A stretch of 21,919 nucleotides of DNA from a virus: positions 1 through 21,919 of IMG/VR virus record IMGVR_UViG_3300017751_000278, one strand, 5' to 3'. Under the pieces are notes generated by a model that made no database searches, was not told the DNA's origin, and saw nothing but the letters and a program-made list of their open reading frames with translations. How positions within the stretch are numbered: the stretch's first letter is position 1; each line of letters begins with the position of its first letter. The position numbers and the translations under genes are program-made. Shown here in pieces: positions 5,408 to 21,813 of this stretch.

Positions 5408-5425
5408 ATTAAAAGCGAACAAGTA
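5408..5425 (+). promoter_or_regulatory. Class A promoter variant before the 5438 gene
   Basis: ATTAAA-AGCGA-ACAAGTA matches the class A pattern TTTATA-N5-AGAAGTA with the same N5 spacing. The TATA-like centre is 27.5 nt before the ATG at 5438, identical to other class A sites. A strong GAGGTGAT also lies just before the ATG, so the transcript may start slightly earlier than a strict leaderless model predicts. Confidence 0.55.
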
Positions 5426-5437
5426 TGAGGTGATAGT

Positions 5438-5821
5438 ATGGCAAGAGGTAGTGGAAGTAAACAGTGTGTAGAATTATCATACAGATATTTAGACCAACAT
5501 GAAAAAAGAGAAGCAAGTACACATGACATAATGTGGTATTTGAACAATAGAAAGGTTACAACGGGGTGCAGAAAAACTAAACAGACATGGAGTATTCAAC
5601 AAGTATCTCAAATACTTAGAAAATCGCCGTACTTTATTAAAATAGGTACTGTAAGAAGTATAACACCTTCCGGTAGTTCTTCTACGTGTTGTGTCTATAG
5701 ATGTGCGGATTTGAAACAAGTGATTGCTAAAAAGTTATCTTACAGTCATAATATTTCTACATATAAATCTGTACCGAAATTCGCAAGAGAAGAATATGTA
5801 AAGCAGGGGGGAGTATTGTGA
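5438..5821 (+). CDS. Winged-helix DNA-binding protein (paralog family member 2)
   Basis: A 127-aa basic protein that heads an operon. Helix 1 is CVELSYRYLDQHEKRE, helix 2 is STHDIMWYLNNRK, the recognition region is TWSIQQVSQILRKSP, and a wing strand follows (YFIKIGTVRSITP) with the aromatic/Cys end CCVYRCADL. The block SQILRKSPYFIKI parallels the proteins at 3068 and 9996, indicating a viral family of winged-helix regulators. Its position directly behind the long inverted repeat and its own promoter suggests autoregulation (inference). GAGGTGAT at 5427-5434 is an unusually close ribosome site. The stop overlaps the next GTG start. Confidence 0.8.
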   Translation: MARGSGSKQCVELSYRYLDQHEKREASTHDIMWYLNNRKVTTGCRKTKQTWSIQQVSQILRKSPYFIKIGTVRSITPSGSSSTCCVYRCADLKQVIAKKLSYSHNISTYKSVPKFAREEYVKQGGVL

Positions 5822-6627
5822 TAGAGCAAAAATTGGATATAGATATAGTGTGGCTTAACGGAAGAAGACCAAAAAAAGAGCAGACTCATTTAATAGTATA
5901 TCATCAAGAAGAACATGGTGCGGCCACTACTATAGCGGGTAAAGCATTAATAGGAGAAAGGCCGCCTGTTGCTTCTATATATTCTAAGCATCTAAATACT
6001 ACATCTGTTAATTTTATACCCGTACCTTTTTGGCCGGAGTATAGATTATACGAAACAAGAAACAATGACGGTAAAAGATTTTTTATCTTGAGAATACCTA
6101 CTGCTTATCCTATTGAGTTAACACAAGATAGGTATGCAAATAAAGATGTGTGGATGCACACTTATCCTGTGGTTAGAGACATCGTAATGACTCTTAATGA
6201 ATTAGGTGTAAATAAAATGTCATATATGACTACAAATCTGTTTGTTTTGCATAAAGACTTTAAAGAGTATAGTAAAGTTGCACACGGAGAGGTAGTAAGT
6301 TACAATTGGTCTACAATGAAAGAAGAAGTTACTACTCATAGTGGAAAATATCAAGAAGATAGTTTAGAGTTAGATTATATTTTAGCACCGAATGTTTGGA
6401 TATGGTGTGATGTTTTCTGTAATTTTACTTCTTCCCCCCTAAAATTATCAGAAGTATTATTAGGAAGTGCTAGTGGAGAATCAGTAGATATGGACACGGC
6501 AGACGCACTTTTAAACCATATACTTTTAACATATGACTTGTCGTGTGATGAATCTGCACTACAAAGTATAACGGAAAAACTTGTAGATATGGACAACATT
6601 AAAAACTTTGGAGGACTTGACATATGA
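5818..6627 (+). CDS. PAC2-family protein (proteasome-assembly-chaperone-like)
   Basis: A 269-aa protein with a GTG start preceded by GGGGGGAG at good spacing. Residues about 33-135 follow the archaeal PAC2 (proteasome assembly chaperone 2) plan: AATTIAGKALIGE and then PPVASIYSKHL (family pattern: identity of the object, then a chain like EIYSPHFPP). Next come the hydrophobic RLYETRNNDGKRFFILRIP and YPVVRDIVMTLNELGVNKM, corresponding to the strand after the YY/E site and the helix preceding the family's GxxxT loop. PAC2 proteins bind proteasome alpha subunits or act as paralog scaffolds. No HbYX-type C-terminus is present (it ends NFGGLDI), so proteasome docking would have to differ. It sits between a regulator and an MCM-like ATPase. 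Assignment is from fold-level pattern, not a search. Confidence 0.6.
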   Translation: MIEQKLDIDIVWLNGRRPKKEQTHLIVYHQEEHGAATTIAGKALIGERPPVASIYSKHLNTTSVNFIPVPFWPEYRLYETRNNDGKRFFILRIPTAYPIELTQDRYANKDVWMHTYPVVRDIVMTLNELGVNKMSYMTTNLFVLHKDFKEYSKVAHGEVVSYNWSTMKEEVTTHSGKYQEDSLELDYILAPNVWIWCDVFCNFTSSPLKLSEVLLGSASGESVDMDTADALLNHILLTYDLSCDESALQSITEKLVDMDNIKNFGGLDI

Positions 6628-7928
6628 ATATATTTGACAACATAAAAGACTTTGCTAGAAGAAACCACTATGTAGATGTAGAGGATAAAGTACCTATATT
6701 TATCTGTAGTATTGGAGCGCATATCTTTAATGCTCTTAATAAATGTTCTAGGTGTGACTTTGACCCCGATAGCCCTTTAGTAGATGAAGAAAATGATTTC
6801 TTGATTACCAATTGTGCTTTGAGACATAACAATATGCCCTTCTATACTCCTATGTCACAGTTACCCGACACACGAATTCATCTAATGCTTCGTGGCCCTA
6901 AAGGGTCGGGTAAATCTGTATTGATTATGATGTTCTTAGCGGAAGGTACGGGATTACTACATAGTCAGAATGCTGACTTAGGGCAAGGTATGAGAACAAT
7001 GCTTGGGCCTAACTCCGTTACAGAAGCAGGTATGTTTGGTAGTGTAGACGAAGAAGGTAATATTATGGGCCGACCATTGGCTAGAGATTTGTGTGGTGGC
7101 TTCTTAGGATTTGAAGAGTTTTCTTCTATGTCTGATGCGTCTAAAAAAGACCACAGTATGGATATGAAAAATCAGTTACTTACTTCCTTAGATAATGGCC
7201 GTGTACAGAAAGCCTTGAGAGCAGGATGGGTTAGTTACACTACTAGATATACAGTATGGGCAGGTACACAACCTGCTAGGTTTGAGTTAGATTCCGGTCT
7301 TGACCGTAGATTCTTTATTATAGATATAGAAATGTCACCGCAAAAAGAATTGCTTTACAAACAAGCACAACACAAACAATCTAATATGACGGTAGAAGAA
7401 AGAACTTCTCTAGCCACATTAAGTATAGAGATTAAACAATGGATACGAGAGAGAATGATGTTAGCAGTTTCAGAACCGCCTACAGGAATTATTTTTGCCG
7501 ATGATATTGGTGATTGGATTAATAGGCCGGACATACGTTCTTTTGAGGCTGACTTGTTCAGAAGATTAGCGATAGGCTATCATATGATGTTGCCAACATA
7601 TAGAGGAGGGCAACCACTAATGATTACTCTTGACAATACTTTAGAGACTATACTAAATATGTCACTAGAACAACGTCGTAGAGTTATGGATGCAGATTCA
7701 GAACTTATCAGAACTACCTTTTGGATGAAAGACTTACCTAAGTCAGAATTACTCAAGGAGATTTCCCGTATGATTACTATGGGAGATTATCAAAGTGCTA
7801 AAAGATGGGTAGTAGAAAACTTAGAAGGACAGTCTTGGTATTGTGAGTATGAACCGGAGACTTCTAGGCGTGGTAGAAAAGGTATGCTTTGTAGGATAGG
7901 GCCAAACGCAAATACTATGGGTGAGTAA
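6624..7928 (+). CDS. MCM-like AAA+ ATPase (putative replicative helicase)
   Basis: A 434-aa protein. Walker A is GPKGSGKS at residues 91-98, Walker B is FLGFEEF at about 160-166 (two Glu instead of Asp-Glu). The block DNGRVQKALRAGW, then TVWAGTQPAR (sensor 1 region) and LDRRFFIID (arginine-finger region) lines up with the MCM order QTISIAKAG..., SVLAAANP and SRFDLIF. The helical and winged C-terminal part runs to the end. A CxxC (residues 41-44) lies in a short N-terminal part, much smaller than the full MCM OB/zinc domain. It probably unwinds DNA as a hexamer for the viral replisome. ATGA overlap with the PAC2-like gene. The missing N-terminal OB fold may be supplied by another subunit. Confidence 0.75.
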   Translation: MNIFDNIKDFARRNHYVDVEDKVPIFICSIGAHIFNALNKCSRCDFDPDSPLVDEENDFLITNCALRHNNMPFYTPMSQLPDTRIHLMLRGPKGSGKSVLIMMFLAEGTGLLHSQNADLGQGMRTMLGPNSVTEAGMFGSVDEEGNIMGRPLARDLCGGFLGFEEFSSMSDASKKDHSMDMKNQLLTSLDNGRVQKALRAGWVSYTTRYTVWAGTQPARFELDSGLDRRFFIIDIEMSPQKELLYKQAQHKQSNMTVEERTSLATLSIEIKQWIRERMMLAVSEPPTGIIFADDIGDWINRPDIRSFEADLFRRLAIGYHMMLPTYRGGQPLMITLDNTLETILNMSLEQRRRVMDADSELIRTTFWMKDLPKSELLKEISRMITMGDYQSAKRWVVENLEGQSWYCEYEPETSRRGRKGMLCRIGPNANTMGE

Positions 7929-8207
7929 ATGGGTAGAAAATCAAAAACGACAAAGGCTTGGTGGCCCGCAGTAAGAAAATACTTACAGAATAGGAGAGAT
8001 GATAAACTTCCGTTTGTCACAAGTAATGTTATTATAGCAGAAGCCTACATGATTGGTTCATATGGTAGTGCGGCTCAAGATAAACTATTATGTCAATCAA
8101 GAATGTGTCCTACACAAAGAGAATTATCAAGATGGTTGGCAGACCATCCCGATATTATAAGCGTTAAAAAACAAAGAGTAGAGTGGGGTTTAAAAAATGA
8201 AAACTAG
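7929..8207 (+). CDS. Winged-helix protein (paralog family member 3)
   Basis: A 92-aa basic protein starting right after the helicase stop (stop TAA then ATG). Layout: basic KSKTTKAWWPAVRKYLQNRR, a helical core, and the recognition block TQRELSRWLADHPDIISVKKQRVEW. That block has the same shape as the other small winged-helix proteins (hydrophobic-x-x-x-P-x-I then a wing with Arg/Trp). There are Cys residues at about 56 and 60 but no full zinc set. It sits between the MCM-like ATPase and the terminase-like gene and overlaps the latter by 11 nt. Role unknown, probably DNA binding. Confidence 0.65.
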   Translation: MGRKSKTTKAWWPAVRKYLQNRRDDKLPFVTSNVIIAEAYMIGSYGSAAQDKLLCQSRMCPTQRELSRWLADHPDIISVKKQRVEWGLKNEN

Positions 8208-9065: not shown

Positions 9066-9109
9066 AGTAAGTATGTTAAAAATCATGGCAAAAAATTTGG
9101 AGTGGTTAC

Positions 9110-9957: not shown

Positions 9958-9959
9958 TA

Positions 9960-9990
9960 AAACCCTTCATATACTTTTATATATTACCAA
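9960..9990 (+). promoter_or_regulatory. Class B promoter for the 9996 gene
   Basis: AAACC at -36, TTCATATA at -30 (centre 27.5 nt before the ATG) and TTACCAA at -12 relative to the start at 9996. The promoter at 21783 has the same three blocks at exactly the same positions. There is no Shine-Dalgarno before the ATG, so the mRNA is likely leaderless. Confidence 0.6.
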
Positions 9991-9995
9991 GATAT

Positions 9996-10403
9996 ATGAG
10001 CGCGAATAACCGCCGCATTCGACGTATCATTGTAGAGATACTTTTTGAGTGTGGACAGATGACAAAAGAAGGAATGGCAGATATGTTAGCACAACGTAAA
10101 ACTGTTCGTACTGTTCCTAGCCCACATAGTTTAGCGGCCCTTATGTCTAAGAATCCACAGATAGTAGCGACGGGTTCAGAAGCAGTAGAAAATGCCGTAG
10201 GAACTAAGGCTATGCACTTAATTTATGACATAGATAGAGAGTTAATTAAAAATAAAGATGATATTACCTACACACGTTCTTTGACAGTTATGACTCCTAG
10301 TGAGAAAGCAAAATCTCAAAAATGTTCCTGTAGTAGAACTAGAGTCTTCCCTCCTAATAGTGATGTCTGTCTACATTGTATAAGAGAACAATCAACATCT
10401 TAA
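9996..10403 (+). CDS. Winged-helix plus zinc-finger regulator (paralog family member 4)
   Basis: A 135-aa protein read from a leaderless ATG. A basic start (NNRRIRRIIVEILF) leads into a winged helix: MTKEGMADMLAQRK, then SPHSLAALMSKNPQIVATG. The block AALMSKNPQIVAT matches the proteins at 3068 and 5438. The C-terminus adds CSCSRTRV...DVCLHCIREQ, a CxC plus CxxC set that can hold one zinc. A regulator with its own dedicated promoter is a plausible viral transcription factor. It belongs to the same paralogous set but is the only one with the zinc module. Confidence 0.75.
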   Translation: MSANNRRIRRIIVEILFECGQMTKEGMADMLAQRKTVRTVPSPHSLAALMSKNPQIVATGSEAVENAVGTKAMHLIYDIDRELIKNKDDITYTRSLTVMTPSEKAKSQKCSCSRTRVFPPNSDVCLHCIREQSTS

Positions 10404-10417
10404 TAAGCGAATAAGTA
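10400..10417 (+). promoter_or_regulatory. Class A promoter variant (24-nt longer leader)
   Basis: TTAATA-AGCGA-ATAAGTA fits class A with the same N5 spacing and two substitutions. Its centre is 51.5 nt before the ATG at 10454, the same offset as the promoter at 11949. The mRNA would therefore carry a leader of about 24 nt. Confidence 0.5.
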
Positions 10418-10453
10418 CGAAAGTAATTTAAGACGCTAAGAGTATTGGTTACT

Positions 10454-10804
10454 ATGGATACAGACAGACTTATGTTCCATTTACTACAACAGATGCAAGC
10501 ATACGGAACAGACCCACTATTAGCAGATATACTGACGGACGAGAATATTAGACAAAGCCACCTTGTTAAAGATTGTATTGATTTTTTAACTGACATAGAT
10601 ATTATAGATGATTTTGTAACTAATCCCGAATTAATGATGTCAAGAGCATGGAGTTTAGATTTAGTTAGAGGTATGGGCTTAGGTGTTTTGATGGCATTAG
10701 AAACAGATAATTCTAATCCCGTTGATTTTAAAGCAGAACTAGCAGAAATGTACAAACAATTAGAATCTTTGAGAATCGAGAAGACCTTTGATTCGCTTGC
10801 GTAG
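10454..10804 (+). CDS. Acidic helical 116-aa protein, unknown
   Basis: Start taken as the ATG at 10454 (MDTDRLMFHLLQQ); a TTG at 10445 is possible but offers nothing better. No strong ribosome site precedes it, in keeping with an unusual leader. The product is a soluble, acidic, all-helical protein with a hydrophobic segment RGMGLGVLMALE that is too short for a membrane helix, and a coiled-coil-like end (FKAELAEMYKQLESLRIEK). No family recognised; it is transcribed from its own promoter as a single gene. Confidence 0.7.
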   Translation: MDTDRLMFHLLQQMQAYGTDPLLADILTDENIRQSHLVKDCIDFLTDIDIIDDFVTNPELMMSRAWSLDLVRGMGLGVLMALETDNSNPVDFKAELAEMYKQLESLRIEKTFDSLA

Positions 10805-10817: not shown

Positions 10818-10835
10818 TTTATATTCTTAGAAGTA
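10818..10835 (+). promoter_or_regulatory. Class A promoter for the 10848 gene
   Basis: TTTATA-TTCTT-AGAAGTA, exact in the two conserved blocks. The TATA centre is 27.5 nt before the GTG at 10848 and there is no Shine-Dalgarno, so it supports the GTG as a leaderless start. Confidence 0.65.
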
Positions 10836-10847: not shown

Positions 10848-11069
10848 GTGAGCGAGGCGAGGATAGATAAACAGGTGCTATCCCCAAACCGTAACCGATA
10901 TGCACAGATAGATGTAGAGCCGTTGATGAAGGAAGGAGTAAAGACACGAAGATTAAGAGTCTCACGTTCTGATAAACAAGCCAAGAGTCATAGATGCAGA
11001 ACCGTTCTGATAATACATAGAGCATTAACAAGTCGGATAAGCCAAACGTTCACACCTATGAGGAATTAA
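10848..11069 (+). CDS. Basic 73-aa protein with leaderless GTG start
   Basis: The GTG start is supported mainly by the promoter at fixed distance. The product is highly basic (VKTRRLRVSRSDKQAKSHRCR), with few hydrophobic residues and no domain that I recognise. It could be a small nucleic-acid-binding protein or an inhibitor. It sits directly before the clamp-loader gene and probably shares its transcript, with a GAGG ribosome site for the latter at its end. Because composition is odd and no homology supports it, non-coding leader function cannot be excluded. Confidence 0.5.
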   Translation: MSEARIDKQVLSPNRNRYAQIDVEPLMKEGVKTRRLRVSRSDKQAKSHRCRTVLIIHRALTSRISQTFTPMRN

Positions 11070-11070: not shown

Positions 11071-11943
11071 ATGAGTAAAGTATGGGCATTAAAACATAGA
11101 CCATCTATAGATGATATAGTTGGTCAAGATGATATTATAAATGCTATAGGTAATGGGATGCAACATATGGTATTCTATAGTCCACAAGCAGGTACAGGTA
11201 AAACAAGTTTGGCTCATGCTCTAGCAAAGAGACATGGTAGTACCTTACATATCTTTAACGCTAGTAGTAAAAAGACTAGAGGTATAGAGTTTGTAGAAGA
11301 AGAACTTATGCCTATGTCAAGAACAGGTAATTGGAAGCAAATATTTTTATTAGACGAGGCAGACCAATTAACACCTGCCGCACAATCAGCACTAAAAGGT
11401 GTGATAGAAAACGCACACGGTTGGTTTATTCTAACTTGTAATGATTTGTCTAAAGTAAGTATATGGTTACAATCAAGATGTAGAGTTCTTAAGTTCAACC
11501 CTATTAGTGAAGAACATATGAAACAAAGATTAATTACTATAGCGGGTAAAGAAGGCGTAGAGATAACACCTAATCATTTAGCCTTAATAATTAATAACCA
11601 TAGAGGAGATTTACGAAATGCAATCAACGCATTACAGGCATATCATAATTCTCAAGACAAACATTCCTTTGTACATTCATTAGAGAACGAGAAGTTTGAT
11701 GTCCAACAATTCTTAACACTTTGTTTTAGAGAAAAAGATTTTGAAGAGTCATTAAAACTACTAGACAAAGATAACAAAAGGGAGAGTATTAGAGCAGTAT
11801 TCCGTTTTGCTATGGAGTCAAATGCTAAACCCCCAAGTAAATTAAAGGTTATAGAAGCCGCCGTCACATCCGAAAGGGATTTTATTATGGGTGTTGACGA
11901 AGATATTATACTCTCTAATTTTGTTTTAATGTGTATAAGGTAA
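11071..11943 (+). CDS. rfcS: Clamp-loader ATPase, RFC small-subunit type
   Basis: A 290-aa AAA+ protein. Start region WALKHRPSIDDIVGQD is the classic RFC opening (W..K.RP....D..GQ). Walker A SPQAGTGKTS spans residues 37-46, Walker B LLDEAD at 93-98, sensor 1 LTCND near 121, and the SRC arginine-finger motif at 135-137 (QSRCRVLKF). The NHRGDLRNAINALQAY sensor 2 region follows, then a shortened collar domain. It loads the sliding clamp encoded at 15885. Archaeal RFC normally needs a large subunit, none of which is seen here, so it may be homo-oligomeric, use a host subunit, or partner with the protein at 9110. Ribosome site GAGG. Confidence 0.93.
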   Translation: MSKVWALKHRPSIDDIVGQDDIINAIGNGMQHMVFYSPQAGTGKTSLAHALAKRHGSTLHIFNASSKKTRGIEFVEEELMPMSRTGNWKQIFLLDEADQLTPAAQSALKGVIENAHGWFILTCNDLSKVSIWLQSRCRVLKFNPISEEHMKQRLITIAGKEGVEITPNHLALIINNHRGDLRNAINALQAYHNSQDKHSFVHSLENEKFDVQQFLTLCFREKDFEESLKLLDKDNKRESIRAVFRFAMESNAKPPSKLKVIEAAVTSERDFIMGVDEDIILSNFVLMCIR

Positions 11944-11948: not shown

Positions 11949-11966
11949 TTTATAAGCAAAGAAGTA
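11949..11966 (+). promoter_or_regulatory. Class A promoter for the SSB-GroES-GroEL operon
   Basis: TTTATA-AGCAA-AGAAGTA; the core TTTATAAGCAAAGAAGTA is identical over 18 bases to the site at 14897. The TATA centre is 51.5 nt before the ATG at 12003. The start has an AAGGTGATTGAA ribosome site, consistent with a short leader of about 24 nt. Confidence 0.65.
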
Positions 11967-12002: not shown

Positions 12003-13199
12003 ATGATAGATGAAAAAATAATACAAAGAACTGCTAATACGCTGAATATAGATATAAACACTCTCAAGAGTAGGACAGATGAAATCCTGTTGGCTCAAGG
12101 AGAGGCATGGAAAAATGCAGGTAAATCAGAACAAGATTGTTATGCCCTAGCATTAAAGGTAGCCGGTAGTAAAATTAAAAATGAAAACTCAAGACTACTA
12201 CGTTCCGGTGCTTCTAAATTAGAAGGTATGTTTATATCAGTACCACGCCCTAAAGAATGGGGTAAGATACTATACAATAAAATGAAGAGTCAAATGATTA
12301 GTGCGTCAGAAGAAGTACGTCAACAATTTGTAGACAATGGAAAGATTGTACTATACAATGATAATGGTGATGGAACTTATACTAGATATGCTAGAGAAGA
12401 TTTCTTCGGTGAAGATACTACTAATGTAAATGAACTAGACAAGAACGCTATGCGTCTTGATGGTGACTCTTACTTCTACTGTGTATGGGATAGTAACAAC
12501 CCTACTTTCCCTAGTGGAGATAGAAACTTTAAATTCGGTAATGCAAGACCACAAAACGAACAAGAAAGAACATCTATGTTCTTAGGTCGTGTAGAAGGTT
12601 CTAGTGATGAAGTAAAGATGATGACTGTAACCGCACAAGGTAAAGCGGCAGATATGCAATACCCAACATTCACCCCTTTGACTATGGCTCTACGTGTCGG
12701 TAAAGACGGTAAGAAATGCTACGTTAAAGCAGATATGGCTAACTATACCGCAGATGCTAGTAAAGCAGAAATCTTTTCAGCCGCACCTATCATGGCTGAC
12801 GGTACAGGGTTAGTACCTTCTCTGTTAGGTTCAGAAAATATGTTGTCATCATTAGATGCTCTACGTGATTACTATGACCAATTCAACGGCCAAGCCGGTT
12901 GGTGGGATAGAATAGTAGGTGTAATAGGTGAAGTAATTCATATAGACCCTAGAGATAACGGTGGTTATACTCTTGTGTGTGCTGATTTAGATATAGCATC
13001 AGTAGCACCTGTAGTAGAAGTATACGTTCCATCAGAACATGGTAGTAGAGTAGACTTTGCAGTAGGTACTAAGATATTATTAGTCGGTCAAACATGGAGA
13101 ACAAGAGATACAGATGAACAAAAATTATCTGTAAACGGTTGGTATCCTTTTGACGAAGTAGAGGCTATGGAAACTGTAGACGCAGAAGGGTGGGATTAA
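12003..13199 (+). CDS. OB-fold ssDNA-binding protein (RPA-like) with acidic tail
   Basis: A 398-aa protein starting at the ATG at 12003 with AAGGTGATT at good spacing; an earlier reading frame start at 11931 would run through the promoter. N-terminal helices (about 1-60), then a block with GMFISVPRPKEWGKILYNKM. The last third (about residues 290-375) follows an OB-fold plan: GVIGEVIHIDPRDNGGYTLV, VVEVYVPSE, DFAVGTKILLVGQTW. The C-terminus is strongly acidic and ends AEGWD, like the acidic aromatic tips of SSB proteins that recruit replication partners. It probably coats ssDNA during replication. Head of an operon with the chaperonins, which is unusual. Not proven to bind DNA. Confidence 0.65.
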   Translation: MIDEKIIQRTANTLNIDINTLKSRTDEILLAQGEAWKNAGKSEQDCYALALKVAGSKIKNENSRLLRSGASKLEGMFISVPRPKEWGKILYNKMKSQMISASEEVRQQFVDNGKIVLYNDNGDGTYTRYAREDFFGEDTTNVNELDKNAMRLDGDSYFYCVWDSNNPTFPSGDRNFKFGNARPQNEQERTSMFLGRVEGSSDEVKMMTVTAQGKAADMQYPTFTPLTMALRVGKDGKKCYVKADMANYTADASKAEIFSAAPIMADGTGLVPSLLGSENMLSSLDALRDYYDQFNGQAGWWDRIVGVIGEVIHIDPRDNGGYTLVCADLDIASVAPVVEVYVPSEHGSRVDFAVGTKILLVGQTWRTRDTDEQKLSVNGWYPFDEVEAMETVDAEGWD

Positions 13200-13411
13200 T
13201 GCAAGCGTTGGGCAACAATGTTATTGTTGAACCAACCCCACAGTCTGATAGCGGCTTAATCATAAATACATCTTACTCCGTTCTATCAATAGGTTCTCTA
13301 GTTCCTACACAAATAAGTGTAGGTTCTAGGGTTCTTATTGAATCAGATAGTTTAAAGACAGAAGGTATTACTAAGTATTGTAAATTCTCAGATATTATAG
13401 CGGTGATATAA
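13199..13411 (+). CDS. groS: GroES-type co-chaperonin (short)
   Basis: A 70-aa protein starting at the TAATG overlap with the SSB-like gene, with AAGGGTGGG as ribosome site. The start MQALGNNVIVEP is the GroES beta-barrel opening, DSGLII sits where the mobile loop ends (family pattern GGIVLP), SVGSRVLIE matches VGDRVLF, and the end FSDIIAVI equals the family's SDILAVI. It is about 25 residues shorter than bacterial GroES, mainly in the mobile loop and roof. It lies immediately before GroEL in the classic groES-groEL order. It would cap the chaperonin ring. Strong support from order plus motifs. Confidence 0.85.
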   Translation: MQALGNNVIVEPTPQSDSGLIINTSYSVLSIGSLVPTQISVGSRVLIESDSLKTEGITKYCKFSDIIAVI

Positions 13412-14917
13412 ATGAAAACATTAATAACAGGTAAAGAAGCAAGTAACAAATTACTACAAGGAGTAAACAAAGTAGCCAATGCGGTTAAAGGAACTCTAGG
13501 GCCAAACGCCCGAACTGTAATTATACAAAGAGAAGATACTTTCCCCCTTATATTAAATGATGGAGTTACTATTGCTAAAGCAGTAAATGACCCCGACCCC
13601 TATGTACAAATGGGTATAGATTTAATTAAGGAAGTGGCATCACAAGCACAACATAAGTCCGGTGATGGTACTACTACTGCTACATTATTAGCGCAAGCCC
13701 TATGTAATATAGGGTATGATGCTATCCATAGAGGAGAAGATGCAGTAGGTTTAACTAACGCTATAAAAGAAGAGGCTGAAATTATCATAGATAAATTATT
13801 AGAAGAAGCAATTCCTGTTACTGATGACAAAGATATGTTAAAGAATGTTGCTATCATAGCATCTAACAACGATGAAGACTTAGGTAATCTGATAGCAGAA
13901 GTTATGGACAAAGTAGGTTCGGAAGGTGCAATAGCAGTAGAGGCCGGTAGTGGTTTCGATACTATATATAATATAGAATCCGGTCTTGAAGTACAGTCGG
14001 GTGCAGTTAGCCCTTACTTTACACAGAATTTAGTAAACTCTAATGTTTTATTAACAAGTGACAGGTTAGATAACTTTGAAAGTTTAGTACCTGCTCTTGA
14101 ACTTTCTATGAAAGCGGGTAGAGGACTAATGATTTTCTGCTCTGACTATAATCCTGCTATGTTACCTAATATACTTATTAATGTAGTACAAGGAAAGATA
14201 AGTGCCTGTATTGTAAAGACGGCAGGTATGGGTCAAGGACAACAAGATTGGTTACAGGATATACAATCAGTGACAGGTGGACATATGTTTTCTAAGATTT
14301 TAGGTGATAATATTTTAGAGGTTAAAGAAAATCAATTAGGTTTTGTACTAAAAGCAGATTGTACTAAAGATACTACTATGTTGCTTACCGAAAAAGATAC
14401 TAGGGATGAAAAACATATTGATAAATTATATCAACAATTAGATGATAGTGACAATAATTGGGAAAAGCAGACACTTACCCGTAGGATTGCACGATTAACT
14501 GACGGTGTTGCATCCATTAAAGTAGGTGCTAATACAGAAATAGAATTACGAGAGCGTAAAGAAAGAATAGATGATGCAGTAAACGCAGTTAGGGCCGCAC
14601 AAAGAAACGGAGTAATTGCAGGTGGTGGTGTGTTACTTAGACATTTTGGAGAACAAAGTTCTTTAGAGATTATAAAAGAAGCATTTGTTATGCCCGAAGA
14701 AACATTACTAGATAATGCAGGGATAATGCAGTATCCTAAAATACAATACGATGAAGATGCTGACTTAGGTTTTGACATGAAAGAAAAAGGAGTCTATGAC
14801 CCTGTTGATGTCACTATAAATTCTATAAGAAGTGCGGTATCTATAGCGGTATTAGTATTATTATCAGATGCGTTAGTAGGTCTACCTGCTGACAAGTTTA
14901 TAAGCAAAGAAGTATGA
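13412..14917 (+). CDS. groL: GroEL-type (group I) chaperonin
   Basis: A 501-aa ATPase that folds proteins with GroES. Group I motifs in order: TLGPNART (28-35), ILNDGVTIA with Asp50, GDGTTTAT (84-91), VGSEGAIAVEAG, SPYFTQN in the apical part, GANTEIELRERK near residue 370, AGGGVLL, and VYDPVDVT with the catalytic-type Asp463. It is shorter than bacterial GroEL (about 545 aa) and lacks the Gly-Gly-Met tail. This is not the thermosome class expected of archaeal cells. It starts immediately after the GroES stop, with GGTGATATAA as ribosome site. The 3' end carries an overlapping promoter for the next operon. Likely aids folding of capsid or replication proteins (inference). Confidence 0.95.
   Translation: MKTLITGKEASNKLLQGVNKVANAVKGTLGPNARTVIIQREDTFPLILNDGVTIAKAVNDPDPYVQMGIDLIKEVASQAQHKSGDGTTTATLLAQALCNIGYDAIHRGEDAVGLTNAIKEEAEIIIDKLLEEAIPVTDDKDMLKNVAIIASNNDEDLGNLIAEVMDKVGSEGAIAVEAGSGFDTIYNIESGLEVQSGAVSPYFTQNLVNSNVLLTSDRLDNFESLVPALELSMKAGRGLMIFCSDYNPAMLPNILINVVQGKISACIVKTAGMGQGQQDWLQDIQSVTGGHMFSKILGDNILEVKENQLGFVLKADCTKDTTMLLTEKDTRDEKHIDKLYQQLDDSDNNWEKQTLTRRIARLTDGVASIKVGANTEIELRERKERIDDAVNAVRAAQRNGVIAGGGVLLRHFGEQSSLEIIKEAFVMPEETLLDNAGIMQYPKIQYDEDADLGFDMKEKGVYDPVDVTINSIRSAVSIAVLVLLSDALVGLPADKFISKEV
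14897..14914 (+). promoter_or_regulatory. Class A promoter inside the end of GroEL
   Basis: TTTATA-AGCAA-AGAAGTA within the last codons of the chaperonin gene (encoding FISKEV). The TATA centre is 27.5 nt before the ATG at 14927. GAGGG just before the ATG could serve as a ribosome site if the transcript starts upstream. Confidence 0.6.
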
Positions 14918-14926: not shown

Positions 14927-15898
14927 ATGTCTTGGGGAAATCAAACAAACAACACAGTAGCCAAAAAAGAAGTAGCAAAAGCACCGACGCAATTATATGA
15001 CCGCGATTATTATAGGTCGCTTTTAGATACTAAGAAAACTACATCTCAGAAATATAGAATGGCTCTTGTGGCACATGAAAACTCATGTAAAACAGGTCTT
15101 GCTCTTTCTCTATTAGAAGCAGAAATAGATAACGGTAAAACTATTACTATCTTAGATATAGATAATTCAGCAGGTGCTACAGTAGAATATTTATACCCTA
15201 ATGCGGATAACATTAGAGTTATACCTTTACTAGATGAGTCTGATGATTCTATCTATCATGAAGATAATTCTGTAAACCACATGGCTCTTATCAACAAGAC
15301 AAAGTGGTTTATCAATCTTCTAGCAGAAGATATAGCAGAACAACCGGAACAACACGGTGGTATAATTTTTGATGGTGGCTCTACATTCCTTAAATGGTGT
15401 GAGTTTGCTATGAGACAGTCTCTACTAGCAAAGGGTATCATTGAGAACGAAGATGACTCATTTAATCAGAAAGAATGGAGAGAGCGTAACAGACTAAATC
15501 GTGACGTTCTTGATAGACTTCATGCTCTACCTGTCTCTAAAATATTCAACACCTTCCACTTGAAGGCAGTACAACAATATATGGATGACGGTACAGGTAA
15601 GAAAGTTCTTATGGCCGTTGGAGAAAGACCGGATTGGGAGAAAGGTACTATGCGTAGATTCTCTCAACAGATATTCCTATCCCGCTACATGAAGAAGGCT
15701 GACATGGCCGCCGGTGTAAAGGGTGACAAATCTCTAGCAGATGGTGAATGGGCAGTTAAGGCTACTATAGAAGAAATGAAAGGTAGTAATATGGAATATG
15801 TAGGTAGTACACATACTATTTTAAGCGTTAAAGATGCTAAAGTAAAATGGTTCGGCTTACCTTTCCTAACAGAAGGTGCTAAGAATGATAACAATTGA
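14927..15898 (+). CDS. RecA-superfamily ATPase with unusual P-loop
   Basis: A 323-aa protein. The Walker A position reads AHENSCKTG (residues 49-57); both P-loop glycines are replaced (Ala and Cys) but the Lys-Thr pair remains. A following ITILDIDNSAGATVE and Walker B-like HGGIIFDGGST (143-152, Asp149) identify a RecA/RadA-like core similar to phage nucleotide-binding (AAA_24/Sak4-type) proteins. The remainder has KIFNTFHLKAVQ, where such ATPases place their sensor strand. Probable role: recombination or strand annealing at forks. It leads an operon with clamp, HTH protein and polymerase. Whether it hydrolyses ATP is doubtful because of the P-loop. Confidence 0.75.
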   Translation: MSWGNQTNNTVAKKEVAKAPTQLYDRDYYRSLLDTKKTTSQKYRMALVAHENSCKTGLALSLLEAEIDNGKTITILDIDNSAGATVEYLYPNADNIRVIPLLDESDDSIYHEDNSVNHMALINKTKWFINLLAEDIAEQPEQHGGIIFDGGSTFLKWCEFAMRQSLLAKGIIENEDDSFNQKEWRERNRLNRDVLDRLHALPVSKIFNTFHLKAVQQYMDDGTGKKVLMAVGERPDWEKGTMRRFSQQIFLSRYMKKADMAAGVKGDKSLADGEWAVKATIEEMKGSNMEYVGSTHTILSVKDAKVKWFGLPFLTEGAKNDNN

Positions 15899-16721
15899 TT
15901 GTGATACTCTTAGGATTCTCTTGGAGAAAGTCAGAAGACCGCAAACTATAGCGGGTAAACAACAAGACCAAATACATTCTTGTATTCTGACACCCGAACA
16001 TAATAAAGTAAAGGTTGTTTCTTTAGTTAAGGATGGTGTAACTTCTTTAAACAGATTTACTTGTTTCGCTACTTGTAAAGTAGGCGATAAAGAAATACCA
16101 ATTACTAACATTAAAGATTTTCTAGGAATATTAAAGTATCACGGCGGTTCACTATCGTTGTCTTCGGTAGGTGATAAAGTAAAGATTAAATCTAAAAGTA
16201 AACAAACTACTATTACGGGCTCTACTAAGGCTACTGCTTATCCTCATAATCCTGCAACACTAATGGAATGGACTACTAAATCTTTGGCAATATCACGCTC
16301 CTTTGTTAAGGACGATAGTGGTTATAATTATGTCTCCAAAACAAATGAGACAATAAAACCTTTCTTTAAACATATGACAGATGGAAACACTTTGTTTGAG
16401 GCTCTACGTTGCGATTCAATGAATGGTCAAAAATTTAACCGTTATACTTTTATTTTTAGTAGTAGCGGCTTTTCTGTAAAAACAGGTAAAGAATTAAAGG
16501 GTCAAACAATATACAAACTACAAAGTAATACTACTTATACCGAAGATGACTATACACAAGAATGGGAGGCTACCTTTGAAGGAGGTCTTGAAAATTTATT
16601 TAGTCATATGAATGGTTCTGTCACACTCTATTTTTATCAGTTCCCCGAACAAGGGATTAAGATGCTGATAGATTTAGGGTCAGAAGATTATGTCTTCCAA
16701 GCAAGTATAATAGGTGAATAA
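15885..16721 (+). CDS. Sliding clamp (PCNA-like)
   Basis: A 278-aa protein starting at the ATG at 15885, which has AGAAGGT at the right distance; the GTG at 15876 sits inside that site. It overlaps the upstream gene. Sequence plan is that of a two-domain clamp: opening MITIDCDTLRILLEKVRRP, an alternating strand region ending in GDKVKIKSKSKQTTI (end of domain 1), an interdomain segment, then domain 2 with TYKLQSNTTY-like strands and SVTLYFYQFPEQGIKMLIDL near the C-terminus, a typical final clamp strand set. Length fits PCNA (about 250). It ties PolB and the other tail-bearing proteins to DNA. Identification is from shape and operon context, no sharp motif exists. Confidence 0.7.
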   Translation: MITIDCDTLRILLEKVRRPQTIAGKQQDQIHSCILTPEHNKVKVVSLVKDGVTSLNRFTCFATCKVGDKEIPITNIKDFLGILKYHGGSLSLSSVGDKVKIKSKSKQTTITGSTKATAYPHNPATLMEWTTKSLAISRSFVKDDSGYNYVSKTNETIKPFFKHMTDGNTLFEALRCDSMNGQKFNRYTFIFSSSGFSVKTGKELKGQTIYKLQSNTTYTEDDYTQEWEATFEGGLENLFSHMNGSVTLYFYQFPEQGIKMLIDLGSEDYVFQASIIGE

Positions 16722-17046: not shown

Positions 17047-17048
17047 GT

Positions 17049-19265
17049 GTGATAGTTACTCAAGGTAGAGGACGTACAGTTAATGTACGATATAGAGATG
17101 AGCAAGGTGTTCGTAAGACCGATAAACTAACTAACTATAGCCCTTATTTTTTTATAACAGATGAAGATGCTATAGACATTTCTGCCTCTAGTAAAGAAAG
17201 TGGGTACAAAGGTGTTTATGGAGAAGACTTAACTAAGATTCTAGTATCAGACCCTAGGTTTGTATATGATTTTAAGAATCAAAACCCACATATACCTACA
17301 TGGGAAGCAAATATACCTTATGTTAATAGAGTATTGGTTGATAGAGTAAACAATGGTCATGAACCTTACAAGAATTATAAGCATAGAATTTGGTATCTTG
17401 ATTGCGAATGGAGTCCTGCTACTAATAAGATGAGAATTATAGTGGTTAATGATTCTTTTACGGGTAAAGAATATGTGTGGTTTGTAGACAAAACTTTAAC
17501 AGAAATAAAAATGTTTAATAAATACGGCGATTACACTTATGAAACACCTGCTATTGGCTTTCCCGACGAAAAAGATATGTTAGAGCATTTCTTAAGTCAC
17601 ATGAATAAACAAGACCCCGATATAATTACGGGTTGGTTTGTAGTAGGTGCTGACATAAGAACTATTATAGAAAGATGTAGGGCTTGTAATATTAACCCTG
17701 CTCTTATGAGTCCATATAGAAGAATAAATTATACCTACAAAGATTGGGAACAACCTATTGTCGGTAGAAATTGTATAGATTTGATGATAGGCTTCTCTAA
17801 AATATGGGAAATGAAGAATGGTAAATTACCTTCTTACAAATTAGATGATGTAGCACATGAAGTTTTAGGAGAAAAGAAGATTGAGTTACCCGACGGACAC
17901 GACACTTATCTTACTGACCCTCCACTGTACTTACACTACGCTAGACAAGACGTAAGATTGTTACCTAAATTAGACTCTAAAGTAAATGCGTTAGAGTATT
18001 ACACATCACTACAACATATTGTACAATGTGACATACGTTCTACCCCATTTATTACAAAGATGTTTTCTAACTTAGTATTACTAGACCCTAAGACAAATCT
18101 AAGAATACCTACTAAGCCACAGTTTGAGTACGAACCTTACATGGGGGCAGAAGTTATGGAAGTAGAACCATCTGTATATCAGAACGTAGGTATCCTAGAT
18201 ATTAAGGCTATGTATCACAGTAATGCTTCTCTATACAATATATCTTGGGATACTCTTGATAAAAATGGTAAAGATTGTGGTAATGGTACTAAGTTTTCAG
18301 AAGGTGATAAAGGTATTCTAGTTAGACAAATGGATTACATGACAGAAACTAGGAATATATATAAAAAACTTATGAAATCTGACCCTAGTAACTATGATAA
18401 ATGGGATACAATGCAGTTCGCTTGTAAGTCTTTAGTAGCATCTATGTATGGTGTGGCGGGAGATGCAAAATACGGCTTGTATCATCCCGATGTAGCGGCT
18501 TCAATTACTTATACTTCTAGGGCTACTCTAGGTAGGCTCAAACAGTGTGCTGAAGACAACGGTTCTAAGGTGCTTTACGGCCATACAGACAGTGTGTTTT
18601 GTGTAATAGATAGTCCACAGGCCGGAGAGGATTTGATAGCCACAATCAACGCTACAATGCACCCTATTGAAACTGAGTTTGAGAAGTGGTGTTCGTCTAT
18701 GGTTTTGATGGCTAAGAATAGATACGCCGGAAATGTTACATGGACTGATGGTCAGTTCCACGAACCAAAAATGTATATCAAAGGTATAGAAATGAAACAA
18801 TCACGTATGCCTCCTATTATGAAAGAGGTTATGGGAAATACTATACAGATGATATTAGATGGTAAAAATGAATTAGCGGTTAACGACAAACTTAAACCTA
18901 TTATAACGAGCATAGTAAATGGTACTGTAGATATTAACAGTATTTGTATGAAGGGTAAATTAGATAGAAATTTAAGTGACTACAAAGTTTTATCCGGTTC
19001 TAGTGCAGGTGCGGCATGGGCTAACGAAAATCTAGGTAAGGGTTATCATAGTGGTTCTTTCTTTAAAGTTACTCTTGACGATAAAGGTAAGTATGTAGCA
19101 TTTGACGAACCGGAAGATATAACGGGTATAGTAAATATAGGTTACAAAATACTATGTGAAAGATTCGTTATTAAAAAAGTAACACCATATTATGAATTGA
19201 TGGGTTGGTCAACACAACCTTTGATAAACTCTATGAGGGGCTTGGGCGGACTCTCTTGGCTATAA
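17049..19265 (+). CDS. polB: Family B DNA polymerase
   Basis: A 738-aa replicative polymerase with GTG start and GAGGAA 6 nt upstream. Exonuclease sites are intact: YLDCEW (Asp118, Glu120), GADI with Asp202, and YARQD (Tyr297, Asp301). Polymerase motifs are A: LDIKAMYHS (382-391, Asp384, His where Pro is usual), B: CKSLVASMYG (459-468, Ala where Asn is usual) and C: YGHTDS (510-515) with His512 in place of the first Asp, but the second Asp (514) retained. It should copy and proofread viral DNA; the motif changes may slow it or mark a lineage. The C-terminus GLGGLSWL resembles the clamp-binding tails of archaeal PolB. Last gene of its operon. Confidence 0.95.
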   Translation: MIVTQGRGRTVNVRYRDEQGVRKTDKLTNYSPYFFITDEDAIDISASSKESGYKGVYGEDLTKILVSDPRFVYDFKNQNPHIPTWEANIPYVNRVLVDRVNNGHEPYKNYKHRIWYLDCEWSPATNKMRIIVVNDSFTGKEYVWFVDKTLTEIKMFNKYGDYTYETPAIGFPDEKDMLEHFLSHMNKQDPDIITGWFVVGADIRTIIERCRACNINPALMSPYRRINYTYKDWEQPIVGRNCIDLMIGFSKIWEMKNGKLPSYKLDDVAHEVLGEKKIELPDGHDTYLTDPPLYLHYARQDVRLLPKLDSKVNALEYYTSLQHIVQCDIRSTPFITKMFSNLVLLDPKTNLRIPTKPQFEYEPYMGAEVMEVEPSVYQNVGILDIKAMYHSNASLYNISWDTLDKNGKDCGNGTKFSEGDKGILVRQMDYMTETRNIYKKLMKSDPSNYDKWDTMQFACKSLVASMYGVAGDAKYGLYHPDVAASITYTSRATLGRLKQCAEDNGSKVLYGHTDSVFCVIDSPQAGEDLIATINATMHPIETEFEKWCSSMVLMAKNRYAGNVTWTDGQFHEPKMYIKGIEMKQSRMPPIMKEVMGNTIQMILDGKNELAVNDKLKPIITSIVNGTVDINSICMKGKLDRNLSDYKVLSGSSAGAAWANENLGKGYHSGSFFKVTLDDKGKYVAFDEPEDITGIVNIGYKILCERFVIKKVTPYYELMGWSTQPLINSMRGLGGLSWL

Positions 19266-19266
19266 G

Positions 19267-19284
19267 TTTATAACCTAAGAAGTA
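19267..19284 (+). promoter_or_regulatory. Class A promoter for the 19297 operon
   Basis: TTTATA-ACCTA-AGAAGTA right after the polymerase stop. The TATA centre is 27.5 nt before the ATG at 19297. No Shine-Dalgarno is present, so a leaderless mRNA is likely. Confidence 0.65.
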
Positions 19285-19296
19285 TGATGTAAAGTT

Positions 19297-19611
19297 ATGA
19301 GTAGAAGTAGAGCGCAAAGTGGTAAACCTACAGTAAAACAATTACAGAAAGATGTACATGAGATGAGAGGAGTAATTAATCAATTGATTAATGCTATGAC
19401 ATCAGATGTAGGAAGATTAAATTCTTTAGTGTTTGGCATTCTAAAAGAGAATGGGCAGATAAAAGAACAGTCTTGTCCTAAATGCTCTCAACGTATTTTA
19501 AGCCCTATACTAAAAGCCGTACCTTTAGATAAAGTATGTCCTTCATGTGGTACTGATTTACTACAAGGGCAAACTACAATAGACCAATGGGATAGCGGAG
19601 AGGAAGAATGA
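19297..19611 (+). CDS. Coiled-coil and zinc-ribbon protein with PIP-like tail
   Basis: A 104-aa protein from a leaderless ATG. Residues 10-50 form a coiled coil (KQLQKDVHEMRGVINQLINA). Residues 62-85 hold two CxxC pairs (SCPKC and VCPSCG) making a zinc ribbon. Near the end, QTTIDQWD fits the PCNA-interacting box (Gln-x-x-Ile-x-x-Trp-Asp), and the tail GEEE is the read-through of the next gene's ribosome site. It could tether the clamp to DNA or to the Cas4-like nuclease encoded next, whose start overlaps. No enzymatic motif is seen. Confidence 0.75.
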   Translation: MSRSRAQSGKPTVKQLQKDVHEMRGVINQLINAMTSDVGRLNSLVFGILKENGQIKEQSCPKCSQRILSPILKAVPLDKVCPSCGTDLLQGQTTIDQWDSGEEE

Positions 19612-20459
19612 TAGCCACTAAAGAACAAATTAGTAAATCTTCTTATAAGCCGGAAGGCGAAATACTTAGAGTTTCTAAGTCATCTTATATGACATATAAA
19701 ATGTGTCCTAGACAATTTTATTGGAGATATGTTGCAGATGTTCCCTCTACCCCACCTACTGAATCTATGATACGTGGTACTATATTACATAGTGCTATGG
19801 AAACAGGTATTTTAGGTGAACCCGAAGATATGCAAAGATTTTTAACGGCAGAAAATATGGATACAGATATAGGTGCAGTTGCTATGACAAATTTACTACA
19901 TAGGGTAGCGGCAGACTTAGGTTCTTTAGAGGTTATAGAAGCAGAAGTAAAACATCAAGTATATGAAGAATTAGATTTGCCTAGCGGTATGACTCCTGTT
20001 ATATGGGTAGGTATGATTGACGGTGTTATTAGACACCCTAACGGCGGATTAATTTTAGTAGAATTAAAAACAGGTAACATGAACATGGGCAAGTTAGGTA
20101 GAACTAGAAAAGAATTAGTATACTATGCTAGAATATTAAAATTATTAGGCTATGATGAAATTACACATTTCTTATATATAACACCGGATTATGAAATTAA
20201 AGATAATGATAAATTACTTGATGAATATAAAAAAAGAGGGAAGACAATGTGGGTAGGTGAAACTCACGGCTACGCTCTTTTAGAGCCTGTAACCACTCGC
20301 TCTATTAATTCCTTTGAGGCATCTTTATATGATACTATTGAATCACTCACACTCCAAGACTACCCTATGGTGTGGAATGAATATTTCTGCCCTATGTGGT
20401 GTGACTTTCATTTAAATTGTGAGTCCGAAATGACGGGTAGTATTGAGAAATGGTTGTGA
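19608..20459 (+). CDS. Cas4/RecB-like Fe-S PD-(D/E)XK nuclease
   Basis: A 283-aa protein. Motifs in order: KMCPRQFYWR with Cys33, RGTILHSAME with His61, MIDGVI with Asp138, LILVELKTG with Glu152 and Lys154, then the KELVYYARIL helix of the family, and a C-terminal CPMWCDFHLNC with Cys261, Cys265 and Cys271. Together these place it in the Cas4/AddB-like family whose four cysteines hold a [4Fe-4S] cluster. It likely degrades or trims DNA ends in viral recombination or replication. No CRISPR array or other Cas gene is nearby, so a CRISPR adaptation role is not indicated. C-terminus TGSIEKWL resembles a clamp-binding tail. Confidence 0.9.
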   Translation: MIATKEQISKSSYKPEGEILRVSKSSYMTYKMCPRQFYWRYVADVPSTPPTESMIRGTILHSAMETGILGEPEDMQRFLTAENMDTDIGAVAMTNLLHRVAADLGSLEVIEAEVKHQVYEELDLPSGMTPVIWVGMIDGVIRHPNGGLILVELKTGNMNMGKLGRTRKELVYYARILKLLGYDEITHFLYITPDYEIKDNDKLLDEYKKRGKTMWVGETHGYALLEPVTTRSINSFEASLYDTIESLTLQDYPMVWNEYFCPMWCDFHLNCESEMTGSIEKWL

Positions 20460-20463
20460 TATA

Positions 20464-20607
20464 ATGATACAAATAATAAATATAAAAAAAGTTACAGATA
20501 ATATGCAGGTAGATTTAAATTTTAGCCCTTTAATTGAAATAGGTAGTATTACATTACTATTATTAGGGGCATTCTTAGTATTTAAATTAAAAGTGGTGAA
20601 AGCATGA
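20464..20607 (+). CDS. 47-aa membrane miniprotein
   Basis: A short ORF four nucleotides after the nuclease stop, with an ATGA overlap onto the next ORF. It has a single hydrophobic segment (about residues 22-40, ending LLLLGAFLVF) with basic residues on the C-terminal side, consistent with one membrane helix. The ribosome site is weak (GGTTGTGAT upstream). It lies between a nuclease and a zinc miniprotein; function is unknown. Confidence 0.5.
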   Translation: MIQIINIKKVTDNMQVDLNFSPLIEIGSITLLLLGAFLVFKLKVVKA

Positions 20608-20768
20608 AAGTTTATGCCGTGTGTGATGCTTGTGGAGAAGAAGAAGATTGGGAAGGCTTTGAAGAAATGGTTCAAGTAAATGCTCAAGTAGGTCATATGC
20701 CTAGAGTAATTTTAGTAGGCGGTTGTGCTTGCGGACACCAACAAGAAGTAGCAGATATAACTGAGTGA
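20604..20768 (+). CDS. Zinc-binding 54-aa miniprotein
   Basis: A 54-aa protein in an ATGA overlap with its upstream neighbour and in overlap with the primase start. The order CDAC (7-10) and CACGH (41-45) makes a four-Cys zinc-binding set, with acidic residues between (EEEDWEGFEEM). GTGGTGAA precedes the ATG. It looks like a small rubredoxin-like or ribbon module that may assist the primase translated directly after it. No family assigned. Confidence 0.65.
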   Translation: MKVYAVCDACGEEEDWEGFEEMVQVNAQVGHMPRVILVGGCACGHQQEVADITE

Positions 20769-20773
20769 TAACC

Positions 20774-21784
20774 ATGCTACTTAATTTTCCAAGAGAGATA
20801 GGGCTTCGCCGTCGTCAATGTGATAGTAGACAAGTCTTTGACGATTATGTTAATCGTATTAATGGTAAGGCTTCTATCTATACTTCTTTGTATTCTTTTG
20901 AGAGAAAACACCCTACTAGAGCATGGAAGTATGATACAGATTCAGTAGTAATGGATAGAGCGTGGTGGGATTTTGACACGACAGAAGAAGAAGATATTTT
21001 TACCGTTAAAGATGATGTAAATACATTACTACAGAGAATAGAAGGTGATATAAGGGTAGTGGCTACAGGTAGAGGATTTCACGTACACCAAATATTTGAC
21101 AAATCCGTTAAAGGTACTGCTATATCAAAACATGTAGATAGATACCAAAGAAAAATGGGTAAAGGATTAAAAACTCTTGATGGTGTAGGTAATCCTTTAA
21201 AACTTACAAGAGTTCCCGACACATATAATGTGACTAGAAAAAAGTGGGCAGTTAATATAGACGTTAAAGAATTTATGAATGACCACCAAGAATATATAAT
21301 CCCTAAAAAACCGGATATAAAACTTATCAAGAATGACCCGTTTAGAGGAGAGATAAGAGATTCTTCTTTTAATATTGTCAAATGGATAGCAGAAAATCCT
21401 GCTAAACAGATGCCTATTTTACAAGCCTTTGATGGTGAGATAGGCACTATGGCACAAGTACCAATTCCCCCTTGTTTAGACAAGGCTATGAGGCAAGAAA
21501 ACCCTAGACATGATGTGAGGGTAGCCTTGACCCAACACTTAGCAGAAAGCCTACGTTGGTTCTCTAACCCTTCTACTATGACTTACCAAGAAAAAGCAAA
21601 AATAGGTGATGAGATAGCAGACTTTTATTCTACACTAGGTTGGAGAGATTATAATAAACAAACTACAAGATTTCATATAAACAGTATATTAGATTATGAG
21701 AATACTGCTTCTTGTCATTGGTTACAGGCTAGAAATTTATGTACAGGCCCATGTTGGAATGATGATGGCACAAGAAGAGATTAA
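20774..21784 (+). CDS. AEP primase, PriS fused to a PriL-like Fe-S domain
   Basis: A 336-aa protein from the ATG at 20774 (GAGTGATAACC upstream); a GTG at 20765 overlapping the previous stop is an alternative. Catalytic AEP motifs: WWDFDTT (Asp66, Asp68), ATGRGFHVHQ (97-106, His103, His105) and KLTRVPDTYNV (143-152). The C-terminal third (about 230-336) is helical with Cys234, Cys314, Cys323 and Cys327; the first spacing of 80 residues is like that in archaeal PriL and eukaryotic PRIM2, where the Cys hold a 4Fe-4S cluster. So one chain seems to combine catalysis and the iron-sulfur domain, making RNA or DNA primers for PolB. It ends right before a promoter. Confidence 0.88.
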   Translation: MLLNFPREIGLRRRQCDSRQVFDDYVNRINGKASIYTSLYSFERKHPTRAWKYDTDSVVMDRAWWDFDTTEEEDIFTVKDDVNTLLQRIEGDIRVVATGRGFHVHQIFDKSVKGTAISKHVDRYQRKMGKGLKTLDGVGNPLKLTRVPDTYNVTRKKWAVNIDVKEFMNDHQEYIIPKKPDIKLIKNDPFRGEIRDSSFNIVKWIAENPAKQMPILQAFDGEIGTMAQVPIPPCLDKAMRQENPRHDVRVALTQHLAESLRWFSNPSTMTYQEKAKIGDEIADFYSTLGWRDYNKQTTRFHINSILDYENTASCHWLQARNLCTGPCWNDDGTRRD

Positions 21785-21813
21785 ACCTTTTATATAGGCT
21801 TTATAGTTACCAA
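21783..21813 (+). promoter_or_regulatory. Class B promoter for the last gene
   Basis: AAACC at -36, TTTATATA at -30 and TTACCAA at -12 relative to the GTG at 21819, the same three positions as at 9960-9990. The block starts at the primase stop codon. It also reveals the otherwise unmarked start of the final gene. Confidence 0.6.

Follow-up and report, generated by a model that had tools for sequence, protein, structure and literature searches.

A virus-private box abutting the TATA element marks a predicted replication regulon in marine viruses that probably infect archaea

What do the repeated promoter-like motifs of an uncultured virus control, and what reads them? We addressed this question with an IMG/VR viral contig of 21,919 bases (the window), in which a sequence-only reading had proposed a promoter class of fixed geometry, here called class A, consisting of TTTATA, five free bases, and AGAAGTA. 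The exact pattern occurs four times in the window (10818, 11949, 14897, and 19267), always on the + (coding) strand, against 0.01 sites expected per dinucleotide shuffle; no shuffle reached four, and a chance origin of these sites is excluded, so that the claimed excess over shuffled sequence is real. When up to three mismatches were allowed, 43 sites were found against 28.9 expected, which is barely an enrichment, and this loose search was dropped as hardly above chance; within the window, therefore, only the strict form is significant and comparison with relatives must carry the rest. Two variant sites keep the spacing (ATTAAA-AGCGA-ACAAGTA at 5408 and TTAATA-AGCGA-ATAAGTA at 10400) and lie at genes of two protein families, 42 and 26, whose orthologues bear class-A boxes in other viruses. 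Furthermore, a close, 93%-identical relative (L006), which retains the class-A sites, reads ATTAAA-AGCGA-AGAAGTA at the position of 5408, and the weak variants thus have independent support. All six distances reported from the TATA center to the start codon were correct when rechecked from the sequence: 27.5 nt at 5438, 10848, 14927, and 19297, and 51.5 nt at 10454 and 12003.

Approximately 130 related IMG/VR loci were collected by searches with the clamp loader, the polymerase, and the protein encoded at 14927. In L007, whose clamp loader shares 64% identity with that of the window, the same genes have TTTATA followed by different letters (ACCGTCGTAG, ACCGTAATAG, and GTCGTAATAG); L008 and L009 carry TGCGGAAAGTG and similar boxes, and L018 carries TGCGGATAGG, unlike AGCAAAGAAG of the window. 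When the regions upstream of the 14927 gene were aligned from dozens of viruses, TTTATA stood at a fixed place and was followed by a lineage-specific word. As judged from these comparisons, AGAAGTA is the version of a TATA-abutting block that is private to the window's own clade, not a group-wide consensus. Among 28 non-redundant viruses, orthologous class-A promoters were found at the genes for the clamp loader, the 12003 protein, the 14927 protein, and a zinc-ribbon protein. TTTATA and a box precede the 12003 gene in 26 of the 28 viruses, the zinc-ribbon promoter has an ortholog in 25, and position +9, counted from the first T of TTTATA, is C in 23 and 19 of them, respectively, and in 88% of the orthologous promoters.

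C at +9 also distinguished TTTATA near gene starts (108 of 176 non-redundant viral sites) from intragenic TTTATA (98 of 457; Fisher p 6e-21). From the alignments, the box is best described as an asymmetric block of approximately 10 bp, from +7 to +16, that directly abuts TTTATA on its downstream side and includes the former spacer; it would lie at roughly −23 to −14 relative to the predicted transcription start. Measured from the first T, the start codon lay 29–31 nt away in 62 of the 108 non-redundant class-A sites, never 32–36 nt, and then 37 nt or more, a distribution that points to leaderless geometry plus a subset with short leaders. Class A therefore has the TATA-like box approximately 24–31 nt upstream of the start, or of the beginning of a short leader, that characterizes an archaeal TATA/TFB core promoter, and the proposed fixed geometry at the archaeal distance holds across the group. 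There is little conservation at the predicted start site itself. Immediately before TTTATA, A and G are over-represented, and those bases are often part of the stop codon of the preceding gene; as a sign of a purine-rich B recognition element (BRE) upstream of TATA, this enrichment is confounded by the stop codons. At family 42, TATA is often degraded (ATTATA, ATTAAA) and the box is retained, which suggests that the two are separable elements.

The evidence on what reads the box came from comparing promoters within and between viruses. We compared the 12 bases after TTTATA in the 28 non-redundant viruses in which two or more of the four orthologous promoters were present: boxes of different genes in one virus were 69.3% identical, whereas boxes at one and the same gene were 43.4% identical between viruses, and none of 5000 shuffles reached the observed value. 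Even between viruses with 80–90% identity in the RadA-like protein encoded at 14927, same-gene box identity (0.604) stayed below the within-virus value (0.693), and the box changes fast between viruses whose core proteins are ~60–80% identical. Intragenic TTTATA gave 0.262 both within and between viruses, which excludes composition as the cause of within-virus similarity. Positions +12 to +18, the second block, showed 0.609 identity within and 0.372 between viruses, and +7 to +11 showed 0.809 and 0.507; the bases once regarded as a free spacer thus co-vary within viruses even more strongly than the block they were thought to precede. In contrast, the flank from −24 to −13 showed no effect (0.257 within, 0.256 between), and the copying of large promoter segments was excluded because the flanks are dissimilar. 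By this comparison, promoters at unrelated genome positions change the same ten bases together while their surroundings are not copied, for which one trans-acting reader per virus would be the simplest cause. We consider it likely that class A is an archaeal-type core promoter joined to a virus-private box, that it defines one replication regulon, and that the box is read by a co-diverging virus-encoded protein, with family 42 as the leading candidate.

The extent of the regulon was examined by a matrix scan of related genomes, of the kind that the sequence-only reading had proposed, with hits mapped to start codons. Per-virus matrices built from known promoters were run over eight contigs of 60–72 kb and the window, and gave 3–7 sites per record against usually 0–1 expected under a Markov background (1–3 for G016, whose matrix was the weakest of the set). 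Held-out hits fell upstream of family 42 (window 5438) in G009, G011, G015, and G016, upstream of family 26 (window 10454) in G011 and G012, and at a few small genes; some lower-scoring hits fell inside genes, and none lay upstream of structural genes in the records scanned. Different promoters, which lack the class-A box, precede the portal gene and the rest of the structural genes and suggest a separate late class. On these predictions, the class-A regulon comprises 3–7 promoters per genome, at the winged-helix regulator gene and the replication genes, and the six sites first noticed in the window correspond to exactly this conserved gene set. Sites that surround replication genes and are common to one genome might also be repeated elements unrelated to transcription, such as replication origins, packaging sites, or recombination sites at operon junctions. 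However, their spacing to both TTTATA and the start codons is fixed, they have a single orientation, and they are kept at particular genes whatever the position of those genes; where the chaperonin cassette is absent, the RadA-like gene directly follows the 12003 gene and the promoter is missing as well. We therefore regard such an origin of the box as most improbable.

A host factor could also read the box. These uncultured marine viruses probably infect archaea, as their gene content matches the description of Aoguangviridae by the International Committee on Taxonomy of Viruses (PMC10768690). In Magrovirales/Aoguangviridae, PolB, RFC, PCNA, primase, GroEL, and GroES occur in one virus (PMC10768690); in the window, PolB, RFC, and Cpn60 were recognized by Pfam, and PCNA-, primase-, and GroES-like proteins by size, order, and inference only. 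Searches with the viral genes in genome contigs and 319 Poseidoniales genomes gave no match; named phages gave only distant PolB and GroEL matches and none for the RadA-like gene or the gene at 6624, and no named magrovirus matched. In this view, the host's own TFB or TBP contacts the box as part of an extended TATA or a downstream BRE, so that viruses would differ as their hosts differ and no viral factor would be needed. The box does directly abut TATA, in the region contacted by the TFB core domain, a contact beside TATA that is established for TFIIB. No TFIIB-domain protein (PF00382) was found in 30 related viral contigs, many of them incomplete, in a search that recovered its positive control, and the presumed hosts have two TFBs; the magrovirus YSH_150918, unlike these relatives, is drawn with a virus-encoded TFB. 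On the other side, Poseidoniales promoters, from genomes reached with a marine group II (MGII) primer confirmed in the literature, showed neither a TTTATA peak nor the box: in ~1.2 Mb read, promoter-like TTTATA was rare (25 sites), with C at +9 in none of the 25 against 108 of the 176 viral sites, and TTTATAWSCGKA was counted 3 times across eight Poseidoniales genomes (13.3 Mb), compared with 27 times across the 30 viral contigs (1.7 Mb). Moreover, the portal and structural promoters of the same viruses lack the box, and an element of ~10 bp that changes so fast between viruses with similar core proteins is poorly explained by a host contact. We judge this alternative unlikely. A virus-specific factor, already invoked by the sequence-only reading, still appears to be the best explanation, given that the box evolves in concert in each virus and is nearly absent from Poseidoniales.

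Among the viral proteins, that of family 42 is the leading candidate reader, as yet unproven. Class-A boxes stand upstream of its gene in 12 viruses (L007, L015, L018, L026/L307, L036, L052, L055, L057, L060, L069, L089, and L316), and these boxes are closer to the other boxes of their own virus (identity 0.678) than to boxes from different viruses (0.475; 1 of 20,000 permutations). The AlphaFold2 model (predicted local distance difference test [pLDDT] 81, predicted template modeling score [pTM] 0.70) has a helix-strand-helix-helix-strand-strand order, and its best Foldseek match was 2od5 (E 2.7e-4), a nucleic-acid-binding protein from an uncultured marine organism, followed by TFIIE, PadR, and Fox winged helices. 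A profile of the family gave no match among the sequences of solved structures; the fold comparison alone gave matches. Weak matches to Pfam DUF3860, for which a PDB structure is described, were obtained for eight of 20 family members, and the structure of 2od5/DUF3860 may well be that of a protein of this virus group. Of the three proteins named by the sequence-only reading, the one at 5438 is the strongest candidate, given that in most viruses the box is present in its own promoter. The protein at 9996–10403 (family 53), which is winged-helix and zinc-finger-like and has its own TATA-like promoter, is very strongly conserved across the group and for that reason fits poorly as the reader of a fast-changing box.

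It is possible, although we lean against it, that another viral protein is the reader: the winged-helix/zinc protein at 9996, the helix-turn-helix protein at 16714, the zinc-ribbon protein at 19297, or family 26. All of these are conserved in the group, and the zinc-ribbon gene is itself in the regulon. When the co-variation of the box with each viral protein was computed with core divergence controlled, the partial r was 0.51 for family 34, 0.45 for family 26, 0.31 for family 42, and ~0.25 for the replication proteins, so that family 26 scores higher than family 42. However, 9996 is too conserved for the variable box, family 26 has no recognizable DNA-binding feature, and only family 42 joins a predicted winged-helix fold to a box-carrying promoter of its own in most viruses.

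Under the preferred reading, a TTTATA core and a private downstream box of ~10 bp would mark the winged-helix regulator gene and the replication genes, and a virus-encoded DNA-binding protein would read the box, the two diverging together in each lineage. Bound at this place, such a protein would come to lie between TBP/TFB and the polymerase, where archaeal repressors commonly act, and this position gives a slight preference for a repressor over an activator. An autoregulated repressor may turn off the replication regulon when enough of its product has built up. Another model, which we rate as quite unlikely, is that each lineage has an initiation-type factor of its own that recognizes the box with, or replacing, the host TFB, factor and regulon-wide sites switching specificity together; related viruses would then have mutually incompatible replication promoters.

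Several points weigh against a single virus-encoded reader of leaderless promoters. The shuffles in the identity test treat viruses as independent; the contrast with host promoters is conditional on Poseidoniales as the host, an assignment inferred from gene content; the co-variation test gives no clear winner and does not single out family 42; and the joint recovery of family 42 and class-A boxes was incomplete across the viruses. In addition, many class-A genes have a Shine-Dalgarno-like GAGGTGAT between the box and the start codon, which a leaderless transcript would not need. This sequence lies between box and ATG even at the winged-helix gene, which has no close co-directional upstream gene, and private, contiguous, orientation-locked words resemble the promoters of phage polymerases. 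Class A might on these grounds be a contiguous promoter of ~16–18 nt, with transcription starting just after the box under an unrecognized viral initiation factor or polymerase and the Shine-Dalgarno sequence lying in a 5' untranslated region. However, the clustering of starts at 29–31 nt, with none at 32–36 nt, is the geometry of leaderless TATA promoters, and a single-subunit RNA polymerase (PF00940) was found in 0 of 30 contigs, weak evidence in that the positive control gave no signal. Shine-Dalgarno presence also follows operon context: matches of at least four bases occurred at a frequency of 0.75 in class-A genes inside an operon, the same as in operon-internal genes generally, compared with 0.53 in other class-A genes and 0.24 at random. 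Given its higher frequency at genes within operons, the Shine-Dalgarno sequence may serve read-through mRNA, and we hold the contiguous promoter to be very unlikely.

Coordinates of the class-A sites and the genes assigned to them in the window are listed in Table 1. Between the 10818 promoter and the clamp loader lie ~220 nt (10848–11069) holding a doubtful 73-aa open reading frame. In L007, the same promoter and a following GTGAGCGA run directly into the clamp loader; in L008 and L009, a winged-helix-like gene lies between the two. The GroES/Cpn60 cassette (window 13190–14917; families 38 and 39) is absent in G009, G016, G029, and G033, and in viruses without it, the 14927 gene stands directly after 12003 and has no class-A promoter of its own. 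The predicted model of the zinc-ribbon protein was of low confidence (pTM 0.42), too poor for a fold search.

Table 1. Class-A sites and associated genes in the window
Feature	Coordinates	Strand	Details
Class-A promoter, winged-helix gene	5408..5425	+	Weak TATA ATTAAA, box AGCGAACAAG; sequence and orthologous boxes
Family 42 winged-helix protein, candidate trans-factor	5438..5821	+	AlphaFold2 model and Foldseek
Class-A promoter, 10454 gene	10400..10417	+	TTAATA, box AGCGAATAAG; orthologous sites at family 26 in G011, G012
Family 26, conserved protein, function not assigned	10454..10804	+	Found in 9 of 11 viruses
Class-A promoter, clamp-loader unit	10818..10835	+	Box TTCTTAGAAG; exact match
Replication factor C small-subunit-like clamp loader	11071..11943	+	Pfam AAA, AAA_lid_RFC1
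Class-A promoter, 12003 gene	11949..11966	+	Box AGCAAAGAAG; exact match
Family 3, called RPA-like from gene order alone; no Pfam match	12003..13199	+	
Class-A promoter for 14927, within 3' end of chaperonin gene	14897..14914	+	Box AGCAAAGAAG; exact match; alignable across dozens of viruses
Putative RadA-like P-loop protein, no Pfam match	14927..15898	+	
Class-A promoter, zinc-ribbon gene	19267..19284	+	Box ACCTAAGAAG; exact match
Family 27, coiled-coil and zinc-ribbon protein	19297..19611	+	Four invariant Cys in 25 relatives

Other promoter-like sequences were seen in the relatives. The regions upstream of the portal gene in G009, G016, G018, and G022 look different from class A (e.g., TTAATAAACAC). 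A second type, with CTTAAAT at approximately −31 and often no Shine-Dalgarno sequence, precedes other genes (L009 ~8509, L008 ~3869, and family 12 of G012 and G016). Furthermore, TTTATAGGACACTTA or TTTATAGCACACTTG and then a CATATAGAGG-like string occur upstream of the gene at + 23525 (G011), 6884 (G012), and 4848 (G015), a possible separate element at a large gene (~530–590 aa) on the structural strand.

Virus-specific promoter sequences have precedents. SIRV2 and other crenarchaeal viruses have virus-specific early-gene regulatory sequences, associated with the winged helix-turn-helix (wHTH) protein Aca8, and the authors of that study inferred different viral regulators (PMC11065993). As in class A, the sequence is common to several genes of one virus (here 3–7 sites per genome), the TATA core is similar and the flank virus-specific (here 0.693 against 0.434), and the wHTH gene carries the sequence itself (here family 42, in 12 viruses). 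In contrast, the crenarchaeal sequences flank BRE/TATA on both sides and serve early anti-defence genes (in rudi-, lipothrix-, and bicaudaviruses), whereas class A belongs to tailed marine viruses and has a short private box directly downstream of TATA, and its gene set is the replication set described above (clamp loader, 12003, 14927, zinc-ribbon, family 26, and wHTH) rather than an anti-defence set. Unlike in the SIRV2/Aca8 case, concerted evolution was measured here, across 28 viruses. SIRV1 and SIRV2 promoters also have a GTC motif downstream of TATA, according to a passage of PMC5569661 citing Kessler 2004; the motif described there is likewise a virus-specific cis element downstream of TATA, but it is a trinucleotide, whereas class-A boxes are ~10 bp long, vary between viruses, and as a rule lack GTC.

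The class I intergenic repeats of halovirus HF2 are 58 bp long and carry a conserved motif right at the start site, and mutating the TATA region beyond the box had no negative consequence (PMC8707807). They resemble class A in being a repeated promoter class (of early-middle genes) in a tailed archaeal virus, in their conserved position among relatives, and in the virus-encoded regulator proposed for them. The HF2 PolB is distantly related (23–25% identity), and the HF2 motif lies at the start site, where class A is little conserved. In eukaryotes, the downstream BRE lies immediately downstream of TATA and is read by a general factor with one consensus. Class A shares this position, but its boxes are private to each virus and absent from the Poseidoniales promoters examined.

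Virus-private promoter flanks were thus already known in crenarchaeal viruses; what is new here is the short TATA-abutting box, its replication regulon, its occurrence in tailed marine viruses, and the measured concerted divergence. Gene timing in uncultured marine archaeal viruses is almost unknown, and in this case a predicted regulon, its cis element, and candidate regulators could be derived from sequence alone. The approximately 28 natural site variants are a ready resource for testing how the specificities of a viral regulator and its operator shift in step, and the class-A element could be used as a marker of replication operons in viral contigs.

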